This document shows positions 41,729 to 49,400 of a DNA stretch of 64,000 nt, piece by piece. The DNA is taken from NCBI GenBank assembly GCA_947489665.1, contig CANLEH010000002.1, positions 62,001 through 126,000 on the forward strand, read 5' to 3'. The notes beneath the pieces are model-generated. The model saw only the letters and a program-made list of their open reading frames with translations. It was not told the origin of the DNA and searched no databases. Each line of letters starts with the position of its first letter. Positions within the stretch are counted from its first letter, which is position 1. The position numbers and the translations under genes were made by a program. This stretch comes from an uncultured Roseicyclus sp. (GTDB taxonomy: Bacteria; Pseudomonadota; Alphaproteobacteria; Rhodobacterales; Rhodobacteraceae).

Positions 41729-42223
41729 TCAGGTATTGCGGCGAAAGGTGTCGAGGCTCACGACCTCTGCATCGCGCGGAGCGGTATCAGAACCATCTTC
41801 GTCTGCCCCGGTTTCTCCGTCGGGGCCACCATCATCGGGCGACGGCCCATCCGGCTCCTCTTCATTTCGCTCAAACCGCCAGCCGAATTCGACGGACGGG
41901 TCGACGAAGGTCAGGATCGCATCGAACGGCACCTTAAGGCGTTCGGGCGCGTCGCCGAAATTCAGGGTCACGGCAAAGTGGGATTGCTCGACGACCAGAT
42001 CGTCATACCAGTTCTGGATCACGATCATCATCTCTTCGGGGTACCGATCGCGCAGCCAGTCGGCCAAGTCGACTTCTTCGTGGCGCGTGTTGAAAGTAAT
42101 GAAGAAATGATGTTCACCCGGCAGACCATTGTCTGACACGCCTTGCAGCACCTCACGGATAACACCGCAAACAGCCTCATGCATGAGGCGGCCATAGGGA
42201 ATGGAGGACGTGCTTTCAGGCAT
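41729..42223 (-). CDS. sspB: ClpXP adaptor protein SspB
   Basis: Alphaproteobacterial SspB, which hands ssrA-tagged proteins to ClpXP. The 164-residue product starts PESTSSIPYGRLMHEAVCGVIREVL and has GLPGEHHFFITFNT, LADWLRDRYPEEMMIVIQNWYDDL, the peptide-binding FAVTLNFG and FVDPSVEFGWRFE. A long acidic linker (about residues 123-150) leads to a C-terminal EVVSLDTFRRN that should be the ClpX-binding tail. The ssrA RNA gene is 2.3 kb away. Confidence 0.9.
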   Translation of the reverse strand: MPESTSSIPYGRLMHEAVCGVIREVLQGVSDNGLPGEHHFFITFNTRHEEVDLADWLRDRYPEEMMIVIQNWYDDLVVEQSHFAVTLNFGDAPERLKVPFDAILTFVDPSVEFGWRFERNEEEPDGPSPDDGGPDGETGADEDGSDTAPRDAEVVSLDTFRRNT

Positions 42224-42297
42224 GAATATGAACCGGTTGCGTGCAGACCTGATCACCATACGAGATTCGTGCCGATATGAAAGGCGGTCTGGCGGGA

Positions 42298-42663
42298 TCA
42301 GGTGGCAGGCGTGTTCGCAATGACCAACCATGCGGCGAGCGCGGCTTCGGTCCCGAAGAACGTCCAGCTTTGGCGTGATCCGGCCTGATCACGCAGGATC
42401 GAAGTCACACGACCCACGGCGGCCCCGCCATAGGCAAGACCCAGTGCGATCCATGCCATCGGCTCGTTCAGGAACAGCACGCCCGCGCCGATACCGACGA
42501 ACAAGCAGCCCGATACGGCGGACACTTCGGTATAGGCCATGTTGGTGGGTCCGGACTTCATATCCAGCACATCCATGGTCCAGCGCGGCGCAAGCCAGCC
42601 GAGCAGACCCAATCCTATGGTCAGGACGGCGACAGCGTAGTTGATATAGTCGATGGCGGTCAT
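42298..42663 (-). CDS. DUF4345-like small membrane protein (121 aa)
   Basis: Four hydrophobic segments are visible (YINYAVAVLTIGLGLLGWL, VSAVSGCLFVGIGAGVLFL, MAWIALGLAYGGAAVGRV, TEAALAAWLVIANT), matching the compact four-helix DUF4345 membrane proteins. SGPTNMAYTEVSAVSG is the conserved loop. Stand-alone gene upstream of sspB; function unknown. Confidence 0.75.
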   Translation of the reverse strand: MTAIDYINYAVAVLTIGLGLLGWLAPRWTMDVLDMKSGPTNMAYTEVSAVSGCLFVGIGAGVLFLNEPMAWIALGLAYGGAAVGRVTSILRDQAGSRQSWTFFGTEAALAAWLVIANTPAT

Positions 42664-42867
42664 GTGTTTTTGAACCCGATTGTGTGCCCTATTGAACCTT
42701 TAACGGCGTCGGCCCGGCTTTGGATCACTCTAATGCTGAAAAAGCGGGCAAATATCAGTTCAGGGGGACCCGACAAAAATTCTTTCTTTTGCTACTGGGT
42801 AAGGCACCTTATGGTTGATTTTAAGATATTTTTTCCAATTTGGAAACAATAGGCACTGGGGGTGCGC
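42664..42867 (+). other. AT-rich intergenic spacer upstream of the VWA-Hint gene
   Basis: About 200 bases noticeably richer in A and T than the surroundings, especially 42770-42852. It contains TTGATT at 42815 and AT-rich hexamers that could form a promoter, and a 13-base palindrome TTCCAATTTGGAA at 42833-42845 just before the gene. No convincing coding frame. The base composition suggests a silenced or acquired locus. Confidence 0.5.
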
Positions 42868-44448
42868 ATGGTTTCTTCTACCGATATTCAAACTGAGGTT
42901 GATAACGACGTGATCAACGGGATCCCGGTTGAATTGACTGGGGAGGCGCCTCTCTTTGCAACGGATACCTTTGAGATTTCCGCCGACATAACCACGGGCG
43001 GCAATATTCAGGACATCAATGTCGCGCTAGTTATCGACACTTCAGGGTCTTCTAACAATTCATCCGGATCGGACGTCGATGGTGACGGCACAATTGATAC
43101 TTTTCTGGACGCGCAAAAGGCCGCCGCAAATGCGTTGTTCGATAACTTGGTTGCCGCAGGCTACAATCCCGCTGATGTGACGATCTCGCTGATCGAATAT
43201 AGCGGGTCGGCAAGCACCGTCGGCGACTTTACACTTAATGACGAAACTGCCTTCAAGAACGCCGTGGATGGCCTCACTGGCTCCGGGGCGACGAATTTTG
43301 ACGACGCCCTCGACCAGGTAATTTCCGATTGGCGGGGGACCACAACGGACGGCACTGCTGACGACAATCCGGAATCAGAGGTGACTGCGAACGATACAAA
43401 CCTTGTGATCTTTCTGTCCGATGGTGTGCCTACGGTTGGAGGCACCAATTTCACCAACGAGCTCAACATACTGGACAATGAGTTTGACGCGGACATCACG
43501 GCGATCGGCTTGGGGGCCAACTCCGATTTGACCCAGTTGGAAGTCATCGACAACACCGGATCCGCAACGCAGTTGACGGATATTTCTCAGCTGAACGCTC
43601 TTATCAATGCGCCTCCGCCGCTCCCTGATCTGCAGCAGATCGATATTGTCGTCGATGGTGTTGTTCTTGCGACGTATCCTGCAAACGATCCTGCGATAAT
43701 CCAAACCGCGCTTGGCTACAGGCTCGATTGTGTGGAGATCATGGGATATCCTTACACGATCGGTGACTCTCTCGACGTTGAAATCGTTGCGACCTTCACC
43801 CCGGGCGGGGATCAATTATCGGTCGATTTCTTGTCCTTGCCGATGTTTGTATGCTTTGTGTCCGGTACACGCATCCTGACGCCCGATGGGCCTGTCGCAA
43901 TTGAAGGGCTTGAGGTTGGCTCAAGGGTGATCACACGGGACCACGGAATTCAGCGCCTCCGTTGGATAGGGTCGACCAAACTGCCCAAACACGCCTTGAT
44001 GAGGCGCCCGGAATTACGCCCGGTCCGGATCACGGCCGGGAGCCTAGGGAACGACCTTCCAGAACATGATTTGTGCGTCTCCCGGCAGCACCGTGTTTTG
44101 GTCCGCGACTGGCGTGCCGAAATGCTGTTCGGCAGCCCTGAGGGCGTGCTCACTCCAGCGTTCACGTTAATGAATGACTCCACAATACGCATGGACGATG
44201 TTTCGGAAGACGGGGTTGAGTATTTCCATATGGCGTTTGATGGTCATGAGGTCGTCTATTCTGAGGGGGTGGAGACGGAAAGCTTTCATCCGGCCGCCGA
44301 TACCGTTTCTGTTCTGACGGAGCCGCAGAGGCAAGAACTTTATACCCTGTTCCCAGAACTGGAGTCCGGGGTTTCTAGCATGACGGCCGCGCGGGTGGGG
44401 CTTAAGGGCCGGGACGGCAAAGCGCTCAGGATGCTTCCGTCAAGGTGA
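42868..44448 (+). CDS. von Willebrand factor A domain fused to Hint (Hedgehog/intein) domain
   Basis: 526 residues from ATG 42868 (GGGGG upstream). Residues 50-245 form a VWA domain: MIDAS DTSGSS near 57-62, threonine in GSGATNFDDAL and aspartate in VIFLSDGVPT. A calcium-loop-like DVDGDGTID lies inside the MIDAS loop at about 69-77. A linker leads to Cys329 in CFVSGTRILTPDGPVAIEGL, the start of a Hint domain of the bacterial type, with ITRDHGIQRLRWIG, VSRQHRVLV and YFHMAFDGHEVVYSEGVETESF. No signal peptide, so export, if any, would be non-Sec. Hint domains can self-cleave; cleavage before Cys329 is possible but unproven. Confidence 0.85.
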   Translation: MVSSTDIQTEVDNDVINGIPVELTGEAPLFATDTFEISADITTGGNIQDINVALVIDTSGSSNNSSGSDVDGDGTIDTFLDAQKAAANALFDNLVAAGYNPADVTISLIEYSGSASTVGDFTLNDETAFKNAVDGLTGSGATNFDDALDQVISDWRGTTTDGTADDNPESEVTANDTNLVIFLSDGVPTVGGTNFTNELNILDNEFDADITAIGLGANSDLTQLEVIDNTGSATQLTDISQLNALINAPPPLPDLQQIDIVVDGVVLATYPANDPAIIQTALGYRLDCVEIMGYPYTIGDSLDVEIVATFTPGGDQLSVDFLSLPMFVCFVSGTRILTPDGPVAIEGLEVGSRVITRDHGIQRLRWIGSTKLPKHALMRRPELRPVRITAGSLGNDLPEHDLCVSRQHRVLVRDWRAEMLFGSPEGVLTPAFTLMNDSTIRMDDVSEDGVEYFHMAFDGHEVVYSEGVETESFHPAADTVSVLTEPQRQELYTLFPELESGVSSMTAARVGLKGRDGKALRMLPSR

Positions 44449-44567
44449 TGCAATCCAATTGATTTGATGGGACCGCTCGGCTCTTCGATTTTGGGCGTTC
44501 AGGCTCGAAACACGATTTCTTTGTTTCGCGGCAACTTTCGCGACTTTTGTCGGAAGGGGAAGGAAAT

Positions 44568-44880
44568 GCAGGCTTCTGTTGCCAGGTGCCTGCGAACCCC
44601 GCCAGCTCTGGCTAGAGAACTGGGCTTAAAGTCGGCGACTCAGGACAGCTTACGCTGCGAGAGCCATTGCCGGAGCACGATTGTCATTTGCAATTGTACT
44701 TGTCGGGCCGATACGGTGGCACCCCGCCGAGACAAAGCTAACCCCTTTAGACGTTCGTCGATCCTATTTCGGCCCCGTACCATCCCCAAATGAAGGATAT
44801 GTTGGTGGAGCCGCCGGGTACCGCCCCCGGGTCCGATCCGCTTATTACGAGCGCGTTTATGTCCATAGTCCCCGAGGGGA
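44568..44880 (-). ncRNA. ssrA: transfer-messenger RNA, circularly permuted two-piece form
   Basis: On the minus strand, the acceptor piece comes first (about 44880-44803) and ends CGGCTCCACCA; the 5' end of the coding piece GGGGCCG (from 44776) pairs with CGGCTCC to make the acceptor stem, leaving a 26-base intervening segment (44777-44802). The coding piece has the hallmark GAAATAGGATCGACG and a tag frame GCA...TAA at 44691-44650 encoding ANDNRAPAMALAA. It ends near 44568 after a GCAGGC/GCCTGC stem. The permuted order is the alphaproteobacterial type. Mature ends are estimates. tmRNA rescues stalled ribosomes and tags their products for ClpXP, here with SspB. Confidence 0.93.
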
Positions 44881-44887
44881 CGCTTTA

Positions 44888-44916
44888 CATATACGGATGG
44901 TCACGCGCCGGTTCAA
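44888..44916 (-). promoter_or_regulatory. sigma-70 promoter of ssrA
   Basis: On the minus strand TTGAAC (44916-44911) and TATATG (44893-44888) are 17 bases apart; transcription would begin near 44880, at the expected start of the acceptor piece. The -35 hexamer overlaps the stop codon of the upstream gntR gene. Confidence 0.65.
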
Positions 44917-45527
44917 CCTTCGTCGCTCGGCAAGGATTGGGCTTCCAGAAGGGCGCGGACGGTACCGATACGTGTTGCATCGGCCATGCGCGACATCACT
45001 TCGGGCAATCGGCCATCAATGCCAGAGCCGGTTTCCGCCGCCTCCGCCATGCGCCAGCGGAACAACCGCCACAGGGCAGCCTTGAGCGCGTTGGCCAGAA
45101 TATCGCTCGACATTTCGCCGGTAATAATACTCAGCGTTGTCGATCGGATCGCGAAATTGGTCTCAAGGTTCATTTCTTTCGCGGCGCTGACCTGACGCTC
45201 CAACGCGACGATATAGGCATTGGCTTCTACCGAAAGTGGACGATCCCCTTCGATGTCCGCCGCCACTTTCAAAAGCGCGAAGGCAAGGTCGATATCTCGC
45301 TGTCGGTCTTCCGCCTTCAACGGCGAGACGACCGTTCCAACACCGGAGCGGACTTCAACCAAGCGCTCATAGGCCAAACCCTGTAGGGCCTGTCGGACGG
45401 GTGTGCGCGAGACCCCGAATTCCTGAGCCAAGGCCTGTTCGTGCAAGACCGGGCTGGCTGTCGGCGCCTCCAGGCAAATGCGCTTGCGCAGCGCATTGGC
45501 GATTGTTTCTGCATTGTTTTTGGCCAT
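44913..45527 (-). CDS. GntR family transcriptional regulator
   Basis: 204 residues from ATG 45527. The N-terminal winged HTH is typical GntR/FadR: LHEQALAQEFGVSRTPVRQALQGLAYERLVEVRSGVGTVVSP. The C-terminal part (about 75-204) is helical, like a short FCD-type effector domain, but without the usual metal-binding histidines. A longer start at 45587 would place the CTGTATACAG palindrome inside the coding sequence, so the shorter start is preferred. Divergent from the phosphatase-like gene; the palindrome between them is the likely autoregulatory operator. Confidence 0.82.
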   Translation of the reverse strand: MAKNNAETIANALRKRICLEAPTASPVLHEQALAQEFGVSRTPVRQALQGLAYERLVEVRSGVGTVVSPLKAEDRQRDIDLAFALLKVAADIEGDRPLSVEANAYIVALERQVSAAKEMNLETNFAIRSTTLSIITGEMSSDILANALKAALWRLFRWRMAEAAETGSGIDGRLPEVMSRMADATRIGTVRALLEAQSLPSDEG

Positions 45528-45574
45528 TTGGACGCGGGCAACCTGTGTTTGCAAAGTGTTGGGGTCAAGTATAT

Positions 45575-45584
45575 CTGTATACAG
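45575..45584. promoter_or_regulatory. GntR operator candidate CTGTATACAG (site 1)
   Basis: A perfect 10-base palindrome in the 77-base gap between the divergent gntR and phosphatase start codons. TGTATACAG recurs twice more upstream of the small unit at 46.27 kb. FadR/GntR-class regulators typically bind NTNGTATACNAN-like sites, which supports the call. Confidence 0.65.
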
Positions 45585-45604
45585 CATTACTTGAAAGCCA
45601 ACGC

Positions 45605-46162
45605 ATGTCTCTTCCAAAACGCCACGACACTGATCCGGTCCTGCCGGGCTCGATCCGTGCGGTCATCCCGCACCCTGCGGGTGGGGCGATCGCCATGGCC
45701 GGGTTCCCCGGCCTCGAGACAAGCATCGACGGATCAGCCCTTTTCTTGCCGGAGGCGTGCCGCGAGACATTGCAGGGCCTGCGCGAGCTCGGGGCGACAT
45801 CTCTCACTCTGTTGGTAGAAGCGGACGAGCTGGATGCGGAGTTCATTCCGTCGCTCATCGACATCGCAAATGAGGTGGGCCTTTCGATCACCCACTTTCC
45901 GATCGTGGACTATTCCGTTCCCACCGAGGCGCAAAGCAATGACTGGGACACCAGCCGCTCACACCGTGCCGCTGCGTTGTCGCGCAACGAAACTTGTGCG
46001 TTTGCTTGCCAATATGGGGCAGGGCGCAGCGGATTGATGGCTGCCCGGGTCCTGATGGAAGGCGGTATGACCGTCGATGCCGCGATTGCCCTGGTCCGCA
46101 GTCATTTTGCGGAAGCCATCGAAAGTGATGAGCAAGAAGAATGGTTGCGCCGCGCTGGGTGA
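45605..46162 (+). CDS. protein-tyrosine/dual-specificity phosphatase-like protein (185 aa)
   Basis: The P-loop signature CX5R is in FACQYGAGRSGLMAARVLMEGG, with the nucleophile cysteine followed by GAGRSG; FPIVDYSVPTEAQSND supplies a possible general-acid aspartate. The N-terminal half (VIPHPAGGAIAMAGFPGLET ... LQGLRELGATSLTLLVEADEL) fits the CDKN3-like compact dual-specificity fold. ATG 45605 is 78 bases from the divergent gntR start. Substrate unknown (protein, phosphoinositide or nucleotide are all possible). Confidence 0.82.
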   Translation: MSLPKRHDTDPVLPGSIRAVIPHPAGGAIAMAGFPGLETSIDGSALFLPEACRETLQGLRELGATSLTLLVEADELDAEFIPSLIDIANEVGLSITHFPIVDYSVPTEAQSNDWDTSRSHRAAALSRNETCAFACQYGAGRSGLMAARVLMEGGMTVDAAIALVRSHFAEAIESDEQEEWLRRAG

Positions 46163-46220
46163 CGTGGCGTCAATTGGCTGTTTTGCTCCATTTTTGATCT
46201 AATTGGTCTCAAAACCAACT

Positions 46221-46248
46221 TGTATACAGCTGTGTGAACATGTATACA
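46221..46248. promoter_or_regulatory. tandem GntR operator candidates TGTATACA (sites 2 and 3)
   Basis: TGTATACA at 46221-46228 and 46241-46248 are exactly 20 bases apart, so two dimers would bind on one face of the helix. Both read TGTATACAG and are preceded by AAC plus one base. They overlap the only plausible promoter position for the small transcription unit that follows, suggesting repression by the adjacent GntR protein. Confidence 0.6.
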
Positions 46249-46272
46249 GGTAGGTGAAAGGGAGCGAGGCGA

Positions 46273-46419
46273 TTGAAGCGTGCCCGGAGCAATCCGGAGG
46301 TCACTTCGCAAACTTCACCTTTGCAGCCGCGGTCGACTTACCCGTGTCGCGGCTGCGGCTGCAAAGGACAAAATATACACCGTCCGACTGAGTGGCGGCA
46401 GGACCGTAAGGTCACCTAG
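46273..46419 (+). CDS. candidate 48-aa cysteine-motif microprotein
   Basis: TTG at 46273 has AAGGGAG about 8 bases upstream and opens 48 codons ending at TAG 46417-46419, one base before a strong terminator. The product would start KRARSNPEVTSQ and contain a tight CRGCGC cluster (C-x2-C-x-C) in a basic context, possibly metal-binding. Tandem GntR operators lie upstream. A 13-bp inverted repeat inside the frame (46318-46330/46355-46367) would be unusual in a coding sequence, so the unit may instead be a small RNA. Codon third positions are only moderately GC-rich. Confidence 0.35.
   Translation: MKRARSNPEVTSQTSPLQPRSTYPCRGCGCKGQNIHRPTEWRQDRKVT
46318..46367 (+). repeat. long inverted repeat (13-bp perfect stem) in the small GntR-controlled unit
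   Basis: CCTTTGCAGCCGC at 46318-46330 is exactly repaired by GCGGCTGCAAAGG at 46355-46367; the 24-base loop can add GTCG pairings. A smaller GACC-GTAA-GGTC hairpin lies at 46402-46413. With the terminator at 46421 the transcript would have three stable hairpins, as expected for a structured small RNA of about 200 bases. Confidence 0.6.
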
Positions 46420-46420
46420 A

Positions 46421-46458
46421 ACGCGACGGGCTCACCCCCGATCGCGTTTTTTCTTTTC
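46421..46458 (+). terminator. rho-independent terminator of the small unit
   Basis: ACGCGA-CGGG (46421-46430) pairs with CCCG-A-TCGCGT (46437-46447) through ten base pairs with one bulged A; the loop is short and TTTTTTCTTTTC follows. It stops plus-strand transcription ahead of the convergent potD-like gene. Confidence 0.8.
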
Positions 46459-46471
46459 TGGACATTGGCTC

Positions 46472-46502
46472 AAAAAGAAACGCGCCCGGCAATGCGGGCG
46501 CG
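46472..46502 (-). terminator. rho-independent terminator of the potD-like gene
   Basis: On the minus strand CGCGCCCG pairs with CGGGCGCG (46502-46495 with 46488-46481) around a 6-base loop and is followed by TTTCTTTTT. It lies 28 bases past the stop codon of the minus-strand binding-protein gene. Confidence 0.8.
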
Positions 46503-46529
46503 CTTGGTTTCGTGGATTGTGGTAGGGGA

Positions 46530-47564
46530 TCAGAAGCCTGCTTTGATCCGCTCAAACGCTTCGGCTTGACGCTCGCGCTGCTCGTTCGAGATCGGCAGCT
46601 GCGCCAGCACAGGCACGGTCACTTCACCAAGACCAGCGGCCTCCATCGCCTCGGCGCCAAGGGCCTGCAGGGCCGCGTCATTGGCCGATCCGAAGCCATT
46701 GCCCAGAAGCGGGCCCGCGGAGGCATCGCTGAGCACGGCGTTCACATAATCATACGCCAAGGCCTCTTCGCCGGGGGCTTCGACCATGTTCACATAACCG
46801 CAGAGCCAGACGGACGTGCCCTCGGTCGTGTTGCGGGCGAAGCCCACGTTGAAGCCTTCTTCCGCCATGGCGACGGGAACCTCGTTCCAGACCCATGCAG
46901 CCAAAACCTCGCCCGAGCCGATCAACTGGCTGATCTCGGCGGGGTCGGTCCAATAGGTGCGCAGGTTCTGGTGGATGCTACGCAGCCAATCGGTGGCGGC
47001 CTCGAACTGTTCATCCGTGACGTTTGCCCAGTCGGTCACGCCGGTGGCGAGGTATGCCAGCGCGTAGGCGTCATCCACATTGTCGGGGATCGACAGACGC
47101 CCGGCATAGGCGGGGTTGTTGAAGATCTCCAAGCTCGCGACATCCTCAGCCGACAGCTCATCGGCGTTGTAGGCCACCGCAGTGGAGCCATAGTCAGTCG
47201 GTAGGAAGAACAGCTCTTCACTGCCCGCCAGCACATCTTGGCCCACGAGATCGGCGTTCAAGGTCTCGAACGCCGCGATCTGATCCTGATCCCATGCCTC
47301 GATAATGCCCGACGCCTGCCAGCGTGGGACGGAGCCTGCGCAGATATGCGTCACGTCGGATTGGAAGCCTGCCAAAAGGCGCTGAAACGCTTCGTCTTCA
47401 TCGCCGAAGAACACGAATTCCGGCGCGCCGTGGGCATCGATGAATGGCTGGTGGAAGCTCGGATCCTCGAACCCGGAATAGTCAAAAACGGTGAGGCCTT
47501 CGGCAGAGGCCGCGCCCGAAAGGGCGAGCGTCGCGGCTGAGGCGAGCAGCGTGGTCTTGGTCAT
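46530..47564 (-). CDS. periplasmic solute-binding protein, spermidine/putrescine class (PotD-like)
   Basis: 344-residue secreted protein with a signal peptide (TTLLASAATLALSGAASA). The mature chain resembles PotD/PotF-type binding proteins: GLTVFDYSGFEDPSFHQPF, FLPTDYGSTAVAYNADEL, AGRLSIPDNVDDAYALAYLATG and a C-terminal PISNEQRERQAEAFERIKAGF. Single gene with its own terminator. The potBCA operon 13 kb away lacks a binding protein, so this may be its partner. Substrate could be a polyamine or another cationic compound. Confidence 0.85.
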   Translation of the reverse strand: MTKTTLLASAATLALSGAASAEGLTVFDYSGFEDPSFHQPFIDAHGAPEFVFFGDEDEAFQRLLAGFQSDVTHICAGSVPRWQASGIIEAWDQDQIAAFETLNADLVGQDVLAGSEELFFLPTDYGSTAVAYNADELSAEDVASLEIFNNPAYAGRLSIPDNVDDAYALAYLATGVTDWANVTDEQFEAATDWLRSIHQNLRTYWTDPAEISQLIGSGEVLAAWVWNEVPVAMAEEGFNVGFARNTTEGTSVWLCGYVNMVEAPGEEALAYDYVNAVLSDASAGPLLGNGFGSANDAALQALGAEAMEAAGLGEVTVPVLAQLPISNEQRERQAEAFERIKAGF

Positions 47565-47805: not shown

Positions 47806-48657
47806 ATGGACACACGCATCACGGCCACATCGCTCTTTTTCGGAGCGATCGGCGACCTTCTGAACAACTTTGGTGCCCTCCTCAGGATCGGCGGACCTTG
47901 GTTCGCCCTTTACATCGCGCTCCACATCCTTGCCGGACGCGTCTACGCCCATTGGGTGCTGTACGATGTCAATGCACGCAGCCCCGTGCCCAGTGAATGG
48001 TACGTGAACCTCATGTTCCTGGTGATGCTCGGCACGGTTGCCGCGTCCTGGCATCGGTTCGTTGTCTTGAAAGAGGCGCCCAGTTTTTTGCCGCAAATGC
48101 GGTTGATGATCATCCTTAAATACATGCTGGCCTGGGTCGTGATCGGGATCATCATCGGGTTGATGTTGCTGTTCTTCTTCGGGCTACCTGCGCTGTTGCT
48201 GTCGGCACTCGTTGATAAGGCGCTGCAGGACGTTGTAGTGATGACTTTGCAGGATGACATCTTTGATCCAACGAGCCTATCAGCTGGCCTTCTGGCACTG
48301 GCAGTTGGTTTTGTCTTCCTGATCATTTTCAGCTCGATCCTCCTGCTGTTCCGCATGGGCATCGGCCTGCCTTCGGTTGCCATTCTGGATGGGCAGGGAA
48401 TTGGCATGCGCGCCTCGTGGCGCGCCACGCGCGGGGTTGCAGGTGCGGTGTTCGGGGCGAGCCTATGGGCGACATGCGCCTCGATCATCCTGTACGCCGC
48501 CTCGTTCGGCGTGCTGGTCGCGCTGGATCAGGACTATTCCACCGGGCGCGAGGTGATCATGCGGGTGGGCTTCGCGCTCGTCGACATTGTAACAATGCTT
48601 GTAGGCACCGCCGTTCTGACGCGGATCTACCGCGCTGTGCCGGAAGAGTCACTCTGA
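47806..48657 (+). CDS. hypothetical multi-pass membrane protein (283 aa)
   Basis: Six or so hydrophobic segments (for example NLMFLVMLGTVAASW, MLAWVVIGIIIGLMLLFFFGLPALLL, LLALAVGFVFLIIFSSILLLFRMG, GAVFGASLWATCASIILYAASFGVLV). Start ATG 47806 has AGGG eight bases upstream. The arrangement resembles YciC-like or glycerophosphodiester-phosphodiesterase-associated membrane domains, but no firm family call is possible. Its end overlaps the convergent gntR gene by 31 bases. The 240 bases before it contain CTGACAAACATACAAAA (47687-47703). Confidence 0.65.
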   Translation: MDTRITATSLFFGAIGDLLNNFGALLRIGGPWFALYIALHILAGRVYAHWVLYDVNARSPVPSEWYVNLMFLVMLGTVAASWHRFVVLKEAPSFLPQMRLMIILKYMLAWVVIGIIIGLMLLFFFGLPALLLSALVDKALQDVVVMTLQDDIFDPTSLSAGLLALAVGFVFLIIFSSILLLFRMGIGLPSVAILDGQGIGMRASWRATRGVAGAVFGASLWATCASIILYAASFGVLVALDQDYSTGREVIMRVGFALVDIVTMLVGTAVLTRIYRAVPEESL

Positions 48658-49400
48658 GGCAATTTTTCGTTTTGGGCTTGCGCGCGCGCCTCGAAGACCG
48701 ATTGCGCCAACGCTTTGGTGTAGGCCTCAAGTTCGGAGAGGGCGGCGATGACCGCCTCGCCATCGCCCGCATCTTCGGCATCGGCGATGAGTGCATGAAG
48801 GCGCACGATTTCGGCCCGGTCGCGGGCCGTGAAGGTGATCATGTTCATCAGGGGCTGCATCGCCTCAACCGCGCCGGCCAGCTGATAGGACATGACCGGA
48901 TTGCCCGCGCCATCGACCAGCGCGCGGTGAAAGGCGACGTCTGAGGCGCAGAAGGCTTCATCAGAAAGGCCCGGCTGCGCCTGTCGCACGATCTCGGCCC
49001 GCATGGTTGCCAGGTGGTCGGCGTCGCGGCGCGCAGCCGAGAGGCGTGCGCAGGCACGTTCAAGCGCAAAGCGTGCCTCGCACGCGGTATCGAAGCTGAC
49101 ATTGTTCATGCCCAGTAGCAGCGTCGAGGTTGTGATGTGGCCGCGATAGGCATCTTCATAGCTGAGACGGTTCACGAAAGCGCCGCCAAAGGCCCCGCGT
49201 TGGGTTCGGATGAGGCTTTGTGCGGCCAGCCGCTTGAGGGCTTCACGAACGGTGGAGCGCGAAACTTCGAACTGTTCGGACAGCTCGGACTCGGACGGCA
49301 AGCGTTCGTCGACGATCAGTTTTCCGGCGACAATGGCATCGCGGATCGCGGCAGCGATTTGCGCGGAAAGATCGGCGGAGCTGTTTGGGTCGATTTTCAT
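48627..49400 (-). CDS. GntR/FadR family transcriptional regulator with FCD domain
   Basis: 257 residues. N-terminal winged HTH: LIVDERLPSESELSEQFEVSRSTVREALKRLAAQSLIRTQRG, followed by an all-helical FCD effector domain (FDTACEARFALERACARLSA ... SDVAFHRALVDGAGNPVMSYQLAG ... LHALIADAEDAGDGEAV) with the metal-ligand pattern of the family. Divergent from the DUF2182 operon; a strong inverted repeat lies just upstream of its start codon at 49402-49425. Confidence 0.9.
   Translation of the reverse strand: MKIDPNSSADLSAQIAAAIRDAIVAGKLIVDERLPSESELSEQFEVSRSTVREALKRLAAQSLIRTQRGAFGGAFVNRLSYEDAYRGHITTSTLLLGMNNVSFDTACEARFALERACARLSAARRDADHLATMRAEIVRQAQPGLSDEAFCASDVAFHRALVDGAGNPVMSYQLAGAVEAMQPLMNMITFTARDRAEIVRLHALIADAEDAGDGEAVIAALSELEAYTKALAQSVFEARAQAQNEKLPQSDSSGTAR

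Follow-up and report, generated by a model that had tools for sequence, protein, structure and literature searches.

Conserved TGTATACA palindromes suggest that a GntR-type regulator controls a phosphatase-like gene and a predicted structured RNA

Many GntR regulators use binding sites with a GTATAC core. In Agrobacterium fabrum, the VanR-group GntR repressor Atu1419 (PDB 6za3) binds ATGTATACAT overlapping −10 boxes (PMC7797058). The GntR regulator that we describe here belongs to the same fold group as Atu1419 but is only 19% identical to it. The two proteins also differ in that Atu1419 has a metal site of the FCD type that includes histidines, whereas the sole invariant histidine of our regulator lies in the DNA-binding domain; and Atu1419 is tied to hydroxycinnamic-acid genes, whereas our regulator is tied to a phosphatase-like gene and a predicted RNA gene (for Atu1419, PMC7797058). 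AlkR (VanR) of Pseudomonas aeruginosa (PDB 9isw), which is reported to regulate an alkane monooxygenase, is 18% identical to our regulator.

The phosphatase-like protein has a CX5R motif and a conserved upstream Asp in common with the CDKN3, Tc-R-P, and PRL-like dual-specificity phosphatases. It differs from them in having an extra N-terminal region and in being linked to GntR and, in other genera, to transporters. Paracoccus belongs to the same family as the genus studied here or to a near one. In Paracoccus denitrificans, the sRNA-29/NirR circuit joins a GntR regulator to a small RNA of 84 nt, which is proposed to raise the level of gntR mRNA (PMC6686037); here, in contrast, we propose that GntR controls the RNA gene. 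In the literature searched, we found no report of a GntR/phosphatase/RNA module or of the RNA among the matches listed.

We studied a 64-kb stretch of DNA, which we refer to as the window. The gntR gene (44913..45527, − strand) encodes a 204-aa regulator of the GntR superfamily with a winged helix (Pfam GntR, PF00392, E = 5e-15; this profile also matches 16/16 members of A2) and a six-helix, VanR-like C-terminal domain. In the AF2 model of the protein (pLDDT 91.6), the six helices run from residue 72 onward, and the fold matches that span both domains are AlkR(VanR), McbR, TM0439, and Atu1419. The Pfam FCD profile (PF07729) gave no match to the window protein at E 0.1 or to the 16 members at E 0.01, so we call the regulator VanR-like in fold only and do not assign it to the VanR group. 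The initial annotation had referred to FadR/GntR regulators in general; the model and the structure matches indicate a VanR-like fold. The start codon that is common to the orthologues is the ATG at 45527. (With the mechanical ORF start at 45617, the operator described below would fall within gntR.) A possible −10 box for gntR (TATACT, 45568..45573, − strand), which was picked by eye from the consensus, adjoins that operator.

The divergent gene (45605..46162, + strand) encodes a PTP/dual-specificity-phosphatase-like enzyme with the CX5R motif CQYGAGRSG. Its Pfam matches above the cut-off are Tc-R-P (2e-6) and CDKN3 (8e-5), and it matches PTP structures in the PDB. C135, R141, and D102 are invariant across all 13 phosphatase rows, and we infer that D102 is the general-acid Asp of this putative phosphatase.

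The window contains three exact copies of TGTATACA, at 45576-45583, 46221-46228, and 46241-46248, and all three read TGTATACAG on the + strand. Dinucleotide shuffles contained a mean of 0.08 copies per window, and a count of three was reached in 0 of 100. So, the three palindromes that the initial annotation reported are real and are located where it had placed them, and the 20-base spacing between the two that precede a small transcription unit is also real. Operator 1, which lies between gntR and the phosphatase gene, extends to a perfect 10-bp palindrome, CTGTATACAG (45575..45584, unstranded). Operators 2 (46221..46228) and 3 (46241..46248), both TGTATACA and unstranded, lie before the small unit.

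To compare this arrangement across the genus, we used 13 genomes, including the window's own genome (G000, 4.13 Mb). The phosphatase was found in all 13 and gntR in 12 (72-100% identity, own genome included). In these 12 genomes, gntR and the phosphatase gene are divergent neighbors, with one palindrome in the intervening space and one ahead of the small unit. Operator 1 is kept in all 12 (nine exact, three with one mismatch), as is operator 3 (11 exact, one with one mismatch). Thus, the 24 expected operator places hold 20 exact sites and four with one mismatch, while the rest of the 42,303 bases in the 12 loci contain three extra copies at the −35 position and one further one-mismatch site. 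Conservation of the operators wherever gntR is kept had been set beforehand as the test of a shared regulon, and it was seen in 12/12 genomes. The claim of two operators before the small unit needs to be narrowed, however: the downstream copy is conserved, but the copy 20 bp upstream (operator 2) is present in only three of the 12 genomes (G000, G001, and G006).

The thirteenth genome, G007, has lost most of the locus. Its gntR is down to two short fragments (by tblastn), and the locus contains no operator site with up to one mismatch. The small unit is absent from the locus as well, and a covariance search of G007 gave only two 15-bit matches, on other contigs. The phosphatase is kept, with an open reading frame. 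As the tmRNA, phosphatase, and solute-binding protein genes of G007 are all on one contig, the absence is not due to a gap. A shared regulon predicts the joint loss of gntR, the operators, and the RNA, as in G007, albeit that this is one event in a draft genome that is 83% complete. The proposal that one GntR controls gntR itself, the phosphatase gene, and the small unit thus gains from both sides: the operators are present in 12/12 genomes with gntR and were lost along with gntR and the RNA in G007. We consider the control hypothesis to be well supported by these sequence comparisons.

We also searched a sample of 295 genomes from the family, nearly one per genus, with profiles. gntR is present in 12 of them (own genome included) and a close phosphatase (at least 120 bits; the next score is 90) in nine, and each of these nine also has gntR. 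The expected co-occurrence of this GntR and the CQYGAGRSG phosphatase in relatives was found (P = 5e-15, or 1e-13 when the own genome is left out, ignoring ancestry and with a cut-off that was chosen after the scores were seen). Shared ancestry contributes to this association. In the 11 other genomes, exact TGTATACA lies upstream of the gntR homologue at eight of 12 loci. As for the rest, the site upstream of gntR has one mismatch in G260, the second gntR copy of G198 has a site with two mismatches, G220 has no site near gntR, and the G065 site is not at gntR but at a neighboring phosphonate-binding (transporter) gene. A matrix built from 14 exact sites in ten loci of other genera gave the three window sites its top three scores (23.4, 19.6, and 17.9; the next was 7.1), with operator 3 highest. 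The sites in the matrix were picked for having the exact core, which leaves the flanks as the only independent part.

In three other genera, the phosphatase gene is part of an ABC transporter gene cluster that has the same operators. In G108, G233, and G254, it comes after the ABC transporter genes for a solute-binding protein and permeases, and operators lie upstream of the permease gene, the binding-protein gene, or both. (In G254, the binding protein was recognized by eye, and gntR is on another contig.) We take the family-3 binding protein of these clusters to be of the amino-acid type. In G065, the gntR/phosphatase pair lies beside ABC genes that look polyamine-type by eye and beside a phosphonate-type set that has a phosphatase of its own. 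This second enzyme is of the DSP type (L198:65-676, + strand), has TGTATACA at its start, and heads the phosphonate-type ABC transporter cluster. In G155, an operator is upstream of peptidase-C39/HlyD-type export genes.

The small unit was the unexpected part of the locus. By all of the tests made here, it is predicted to be a structured non-coding RNA of about 195 nt (46254..46452, + strand, from the predicted start to the T-run) and not a protein gene; the initial annotation had left this small unit unnamed. We aligned the 12 sequences from the genus over about 122 positions, and the RNAalifold consensus has 35 pairs in three helices. Two-sided changes occur in 20 of the 35 pairs, 95.2% of the cells pair, and none of 500 shuffles attained these values. 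When the structures are slid, the paired fraction drops to 31-45%. The single-sequence fold of 46250-46460 has a z of −4.66. Hairpin 1 (46264..46309, + strand) consists of a stem, the invariant GAAGCGUGCC strand, which is unpaired except for its last C, and a GNRA-capped CCGGA/UCCGG hairpin at 46284-46297; the tetraloop and its compensating stem are found in 12/12 sequences. Hairpin 2 (46318..46367, + strand) is a long stem, in which 15 of 20 pairs have two-sided changes, with an invariant CCGUGUC that lies partly in the loop and partly next to it. The loops of the RNA are invariant among the 12 sequences.

A covariance model gave the window RNA a score of 131.7 bits (the window is one of the model's 12 source sequences) and found one strong copy per genome in 12 of the 13 genus genomes (97-132 bits, again the model's own source sequences). 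We rejected the idea that the RNA is a repeated element, as the strong copy is single in these 12 genomes and the other matches (to E 1) are antisense or at most 30 bits. A search of 44400-46560 against 4227 Rfam families, up to E 5, gave no match within 46250-46460. Outside this genus, our searches did not detect the RNA. Specifically, among 394 family genomes (with strict filters and nine candidates per genome), the only matches were in G000 and G006, both from this genus; 13 other-genera loci, the G007 locus (L200), and six Rhizobiales loci gave no convincing match (the best was 12.5 bits); 385 genomes from the class gave three weak matches of about 24 bits, with neither motif in the matched stretch; and blastn of the small unit against the 295 family genomes hit the own genome only.

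The layout of the RNA gene suggests how it could be controlled. The TATACA within operator 3 (46243-46248) is probably the −10 box of the RNA gene, and in 12/12 genomes, as a raw count, the TATACA of this operator (TATACC in G011) is preceded at 16-17 bp by a hexamer starting with TTG. In G000, G001, and G006, this hexamer (TTGTAT) comes from the extra operator 20 bp upstream, and the exact 20-bp spacing of the operators would follow from the −35/−10 geometry. In other words, operator 2 overlies the probable −35 box of the window's RNA gene (46220..46225, + strand), which agrees with the −35 consensus at 3/6 positions. Both TATACA and TTGTAT are poor matches to the consensus, and a consensus sigma-70 scan reported no promoter for the RNA gene. 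As a conserved operator is at the probable −10 position, a bound repressor should block RNA polymerase.

At its other end, the RNA gene has an intrinsic-terminator-like sequence (46420..46452, + strand) with a stem at 46420-46448 (dG −15.9) and a T-run at 46447-46452, so the putative terminator that had been noted for the small unit is present. A simple terminator scan did not report it. A dedicated search found a terminator-like hairpin and T-run in 11 of the 12 genomes: at about 190-197 nt in six of them and at 239-313 nt in the other five. In G003, a closer stem and T-run can be seen by eye, and in G004 the same hairpin/T-run search found no terminator-like hairpin. Some of the downstream hairpins with T-runs may belong to the convergent neighbor, which in the window encodes a PotD-like ABC solute-binding protein (46530..47564, − strand; SBP_bac_8 at 5e-12, and a PotD match with E of 1e-9 that is far under the family cut-off).

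Given the genes, the operators and how these are conserved, the joint loss in G007, and the structure and promoter/terminator layout of the RNA, all of which were read from sequence, we think there is a good chance that the locus works as follows. A VanR-like GntR repressor would bind the TGTATACA palindromes and repress three promoters: its own, that of the divergent PTP/DSP-like phosphatase gene, and that of the structured RNA gene, which is a separate unit. At this last promoter, repressor on the operator at the probable −10 box would exclude RNA polymerase sterically. A small-molecule effector (a metabolite) would release GntR, and the phosphatase and the RNA would then be made together. 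This would be a compact repressor module with a simple operator rule (an operator at the −10 box), to which is added a structured RNA that has clear covariation support and lies outside the curated families searched. As G007 kept the enzyme but lost the repressor, the operators, and the RNA, and as other genera have transporters in the RNA's stead, the locus offers a natural comparison, which bears on how the regulon of a transcription factor recruits an RNA gene.

The functions of the two products are more speculative. As the GntR/phosphatase pair is found with ABC transporters under the same operators elsewhere, the substrate of the phosphatase is probably a phosphorylated metabolite, either imported or derived. 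In this genus, the RNA probably works in trans, post-transcriptionally, to adjust uptake. Here the likely tie between the module and nutrient import is drawn by analogy with the other genera.

How the RNA would act could be explained in several ways. First, it could be an ordinary base-pairing sRNA that uses an invariant loop as a seed on ABC transporter mRNAs. We give this close to even odds. The stand-alone layout with promoter and terminator fits this idea, as does the presence of ABC transporters among the partners of GntR and the phosphatase elsewhere. However, within G000 the hairpin-loop 11-mer has no exact complement other than the RNA gene itself, which weakens the case for base pairing; the other genus genomes have at most four further such places. 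(Within the window, near-complements of the two loops lie at scattered places.) Also, the invariant strand of the internal loop, inside the stem, exceeds what a seed needs.

Second, the RNA might bind a protein or a ligand, as an aptamer, scaffold, or decoy, with both invariant loops forming one site and the phosphatase or GntR as a possible partner. The covarying stems, the invariant unpaired strands, and the GNRA tetraloop in 12/12 sequences are what such a binding site might look like, and the lack of an exact loop complement in G000 besides the RNA gene points the same way. On the other hand, G007 kept the phosphatase without the RNA, and overall we see this explanation as possible but the less likely of these two. 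Third, the RNA could represent a new class of structured regulatory RNA, as opposed to a base-pairing sRNA, whose two invariant loops bind a protein or metabolite of the module (GntR, the phosphatase, or the substrate or product of the phosphatase). It would thereby feed back on the GntR switch, an arrangement that arose in one genus while relatives have transporter genes. We find this improbable.

A different concern is whether the small GntR is the right regulator. A second GntR regulator, of the FCD type, is encoded at 48627-49400 (− strand), about 1 kb past the solute-binding protein gene. The palindromes might be operators of another GntR such as this one, with the small GntR as a passenger: the product of 48627-49400 has an FCD domain, and the FCD regulator Atu1419 binds a GTATAC palindrome (PMC7797058). 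But the palindrome tracks the small GntR across genera, and in G007 an ORF (L200:5331-6083) resembles the start of 48627-49400 by eye, yet the operators, gntR, and the RNA are gone, so we consider this quite unlikely.

Finally, it is very unlikely that GntR controls a short peptide rich in cysteine (48 aa, starting at the TTG at 46273, with CRGCGCKG) instead of a non-coding RNA, because, although an open frame exists in the small unit, with translated matches in 8 of 41 genomes and YPCxG-like short strings in several genomes, the frames of these strings differ, three of the eight translated matches contain stops, no protein family was matched, the stems covary while the loops are invariant, and the spacing of the two invariant RNA motifs (62-69 nt) takes all three remainders modulo 3 among the 12 genomes, so that no common protein could span both. 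The TTG-start ORF (48 codons, 46273..46419, + strand) has no Pfam or NCBIfam match, and we rejected it as a gene as no frame is common to the relatives. We also set aside a protein match to the small unit in G020 (L016), which by eye looks unrelated and contains two stops.

The initial annotation had called the module self-contained, and this is doubtful, as there are operator-like sites elsewhere. The G000 genome has ten further TGTATACAG places, and the pattern has 18 matches versus six for the reversed pattern, which is a threefold excess only. The GTATAC core may be common to related GntR regulators. The best of the 11 scored sites outside the window (22.9 bits) is at L209:1468 (contig C1, around 1523367); it is 46 bp upstream of a Hint-domain gene, which is a candidate for a further member of the regulon. 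Two other TGTATACA sites (L202:1476 and L202:2284) have a common AACTTGA flank and look like the operators of a different GntR.

On its other side, gntR adjoins the gene for the tmRNA (ssrA) at its 3′ end (44565..44920, − strand; Rfam alpha_tmRNA, 274 bits). ARAGORN placed this tmRNA at 44559-44895, with the tag ANDNRAPAMALAA. Near the tmRNA is a gene for a possibly secreted protein with VWA and Hint_2 domains (42862-44448, + strand); its Hint domain is of the same family as that of the L209 gene. The SspB adaptor family handles tmRNA-tagged proteins, and an SspB gene (41729-42331, − strand) is 2.2 kb from the tmRNA. In G007, the tmRNA is beside the gntR remnant, and an SspB-like ORF can be recognized there by eye.
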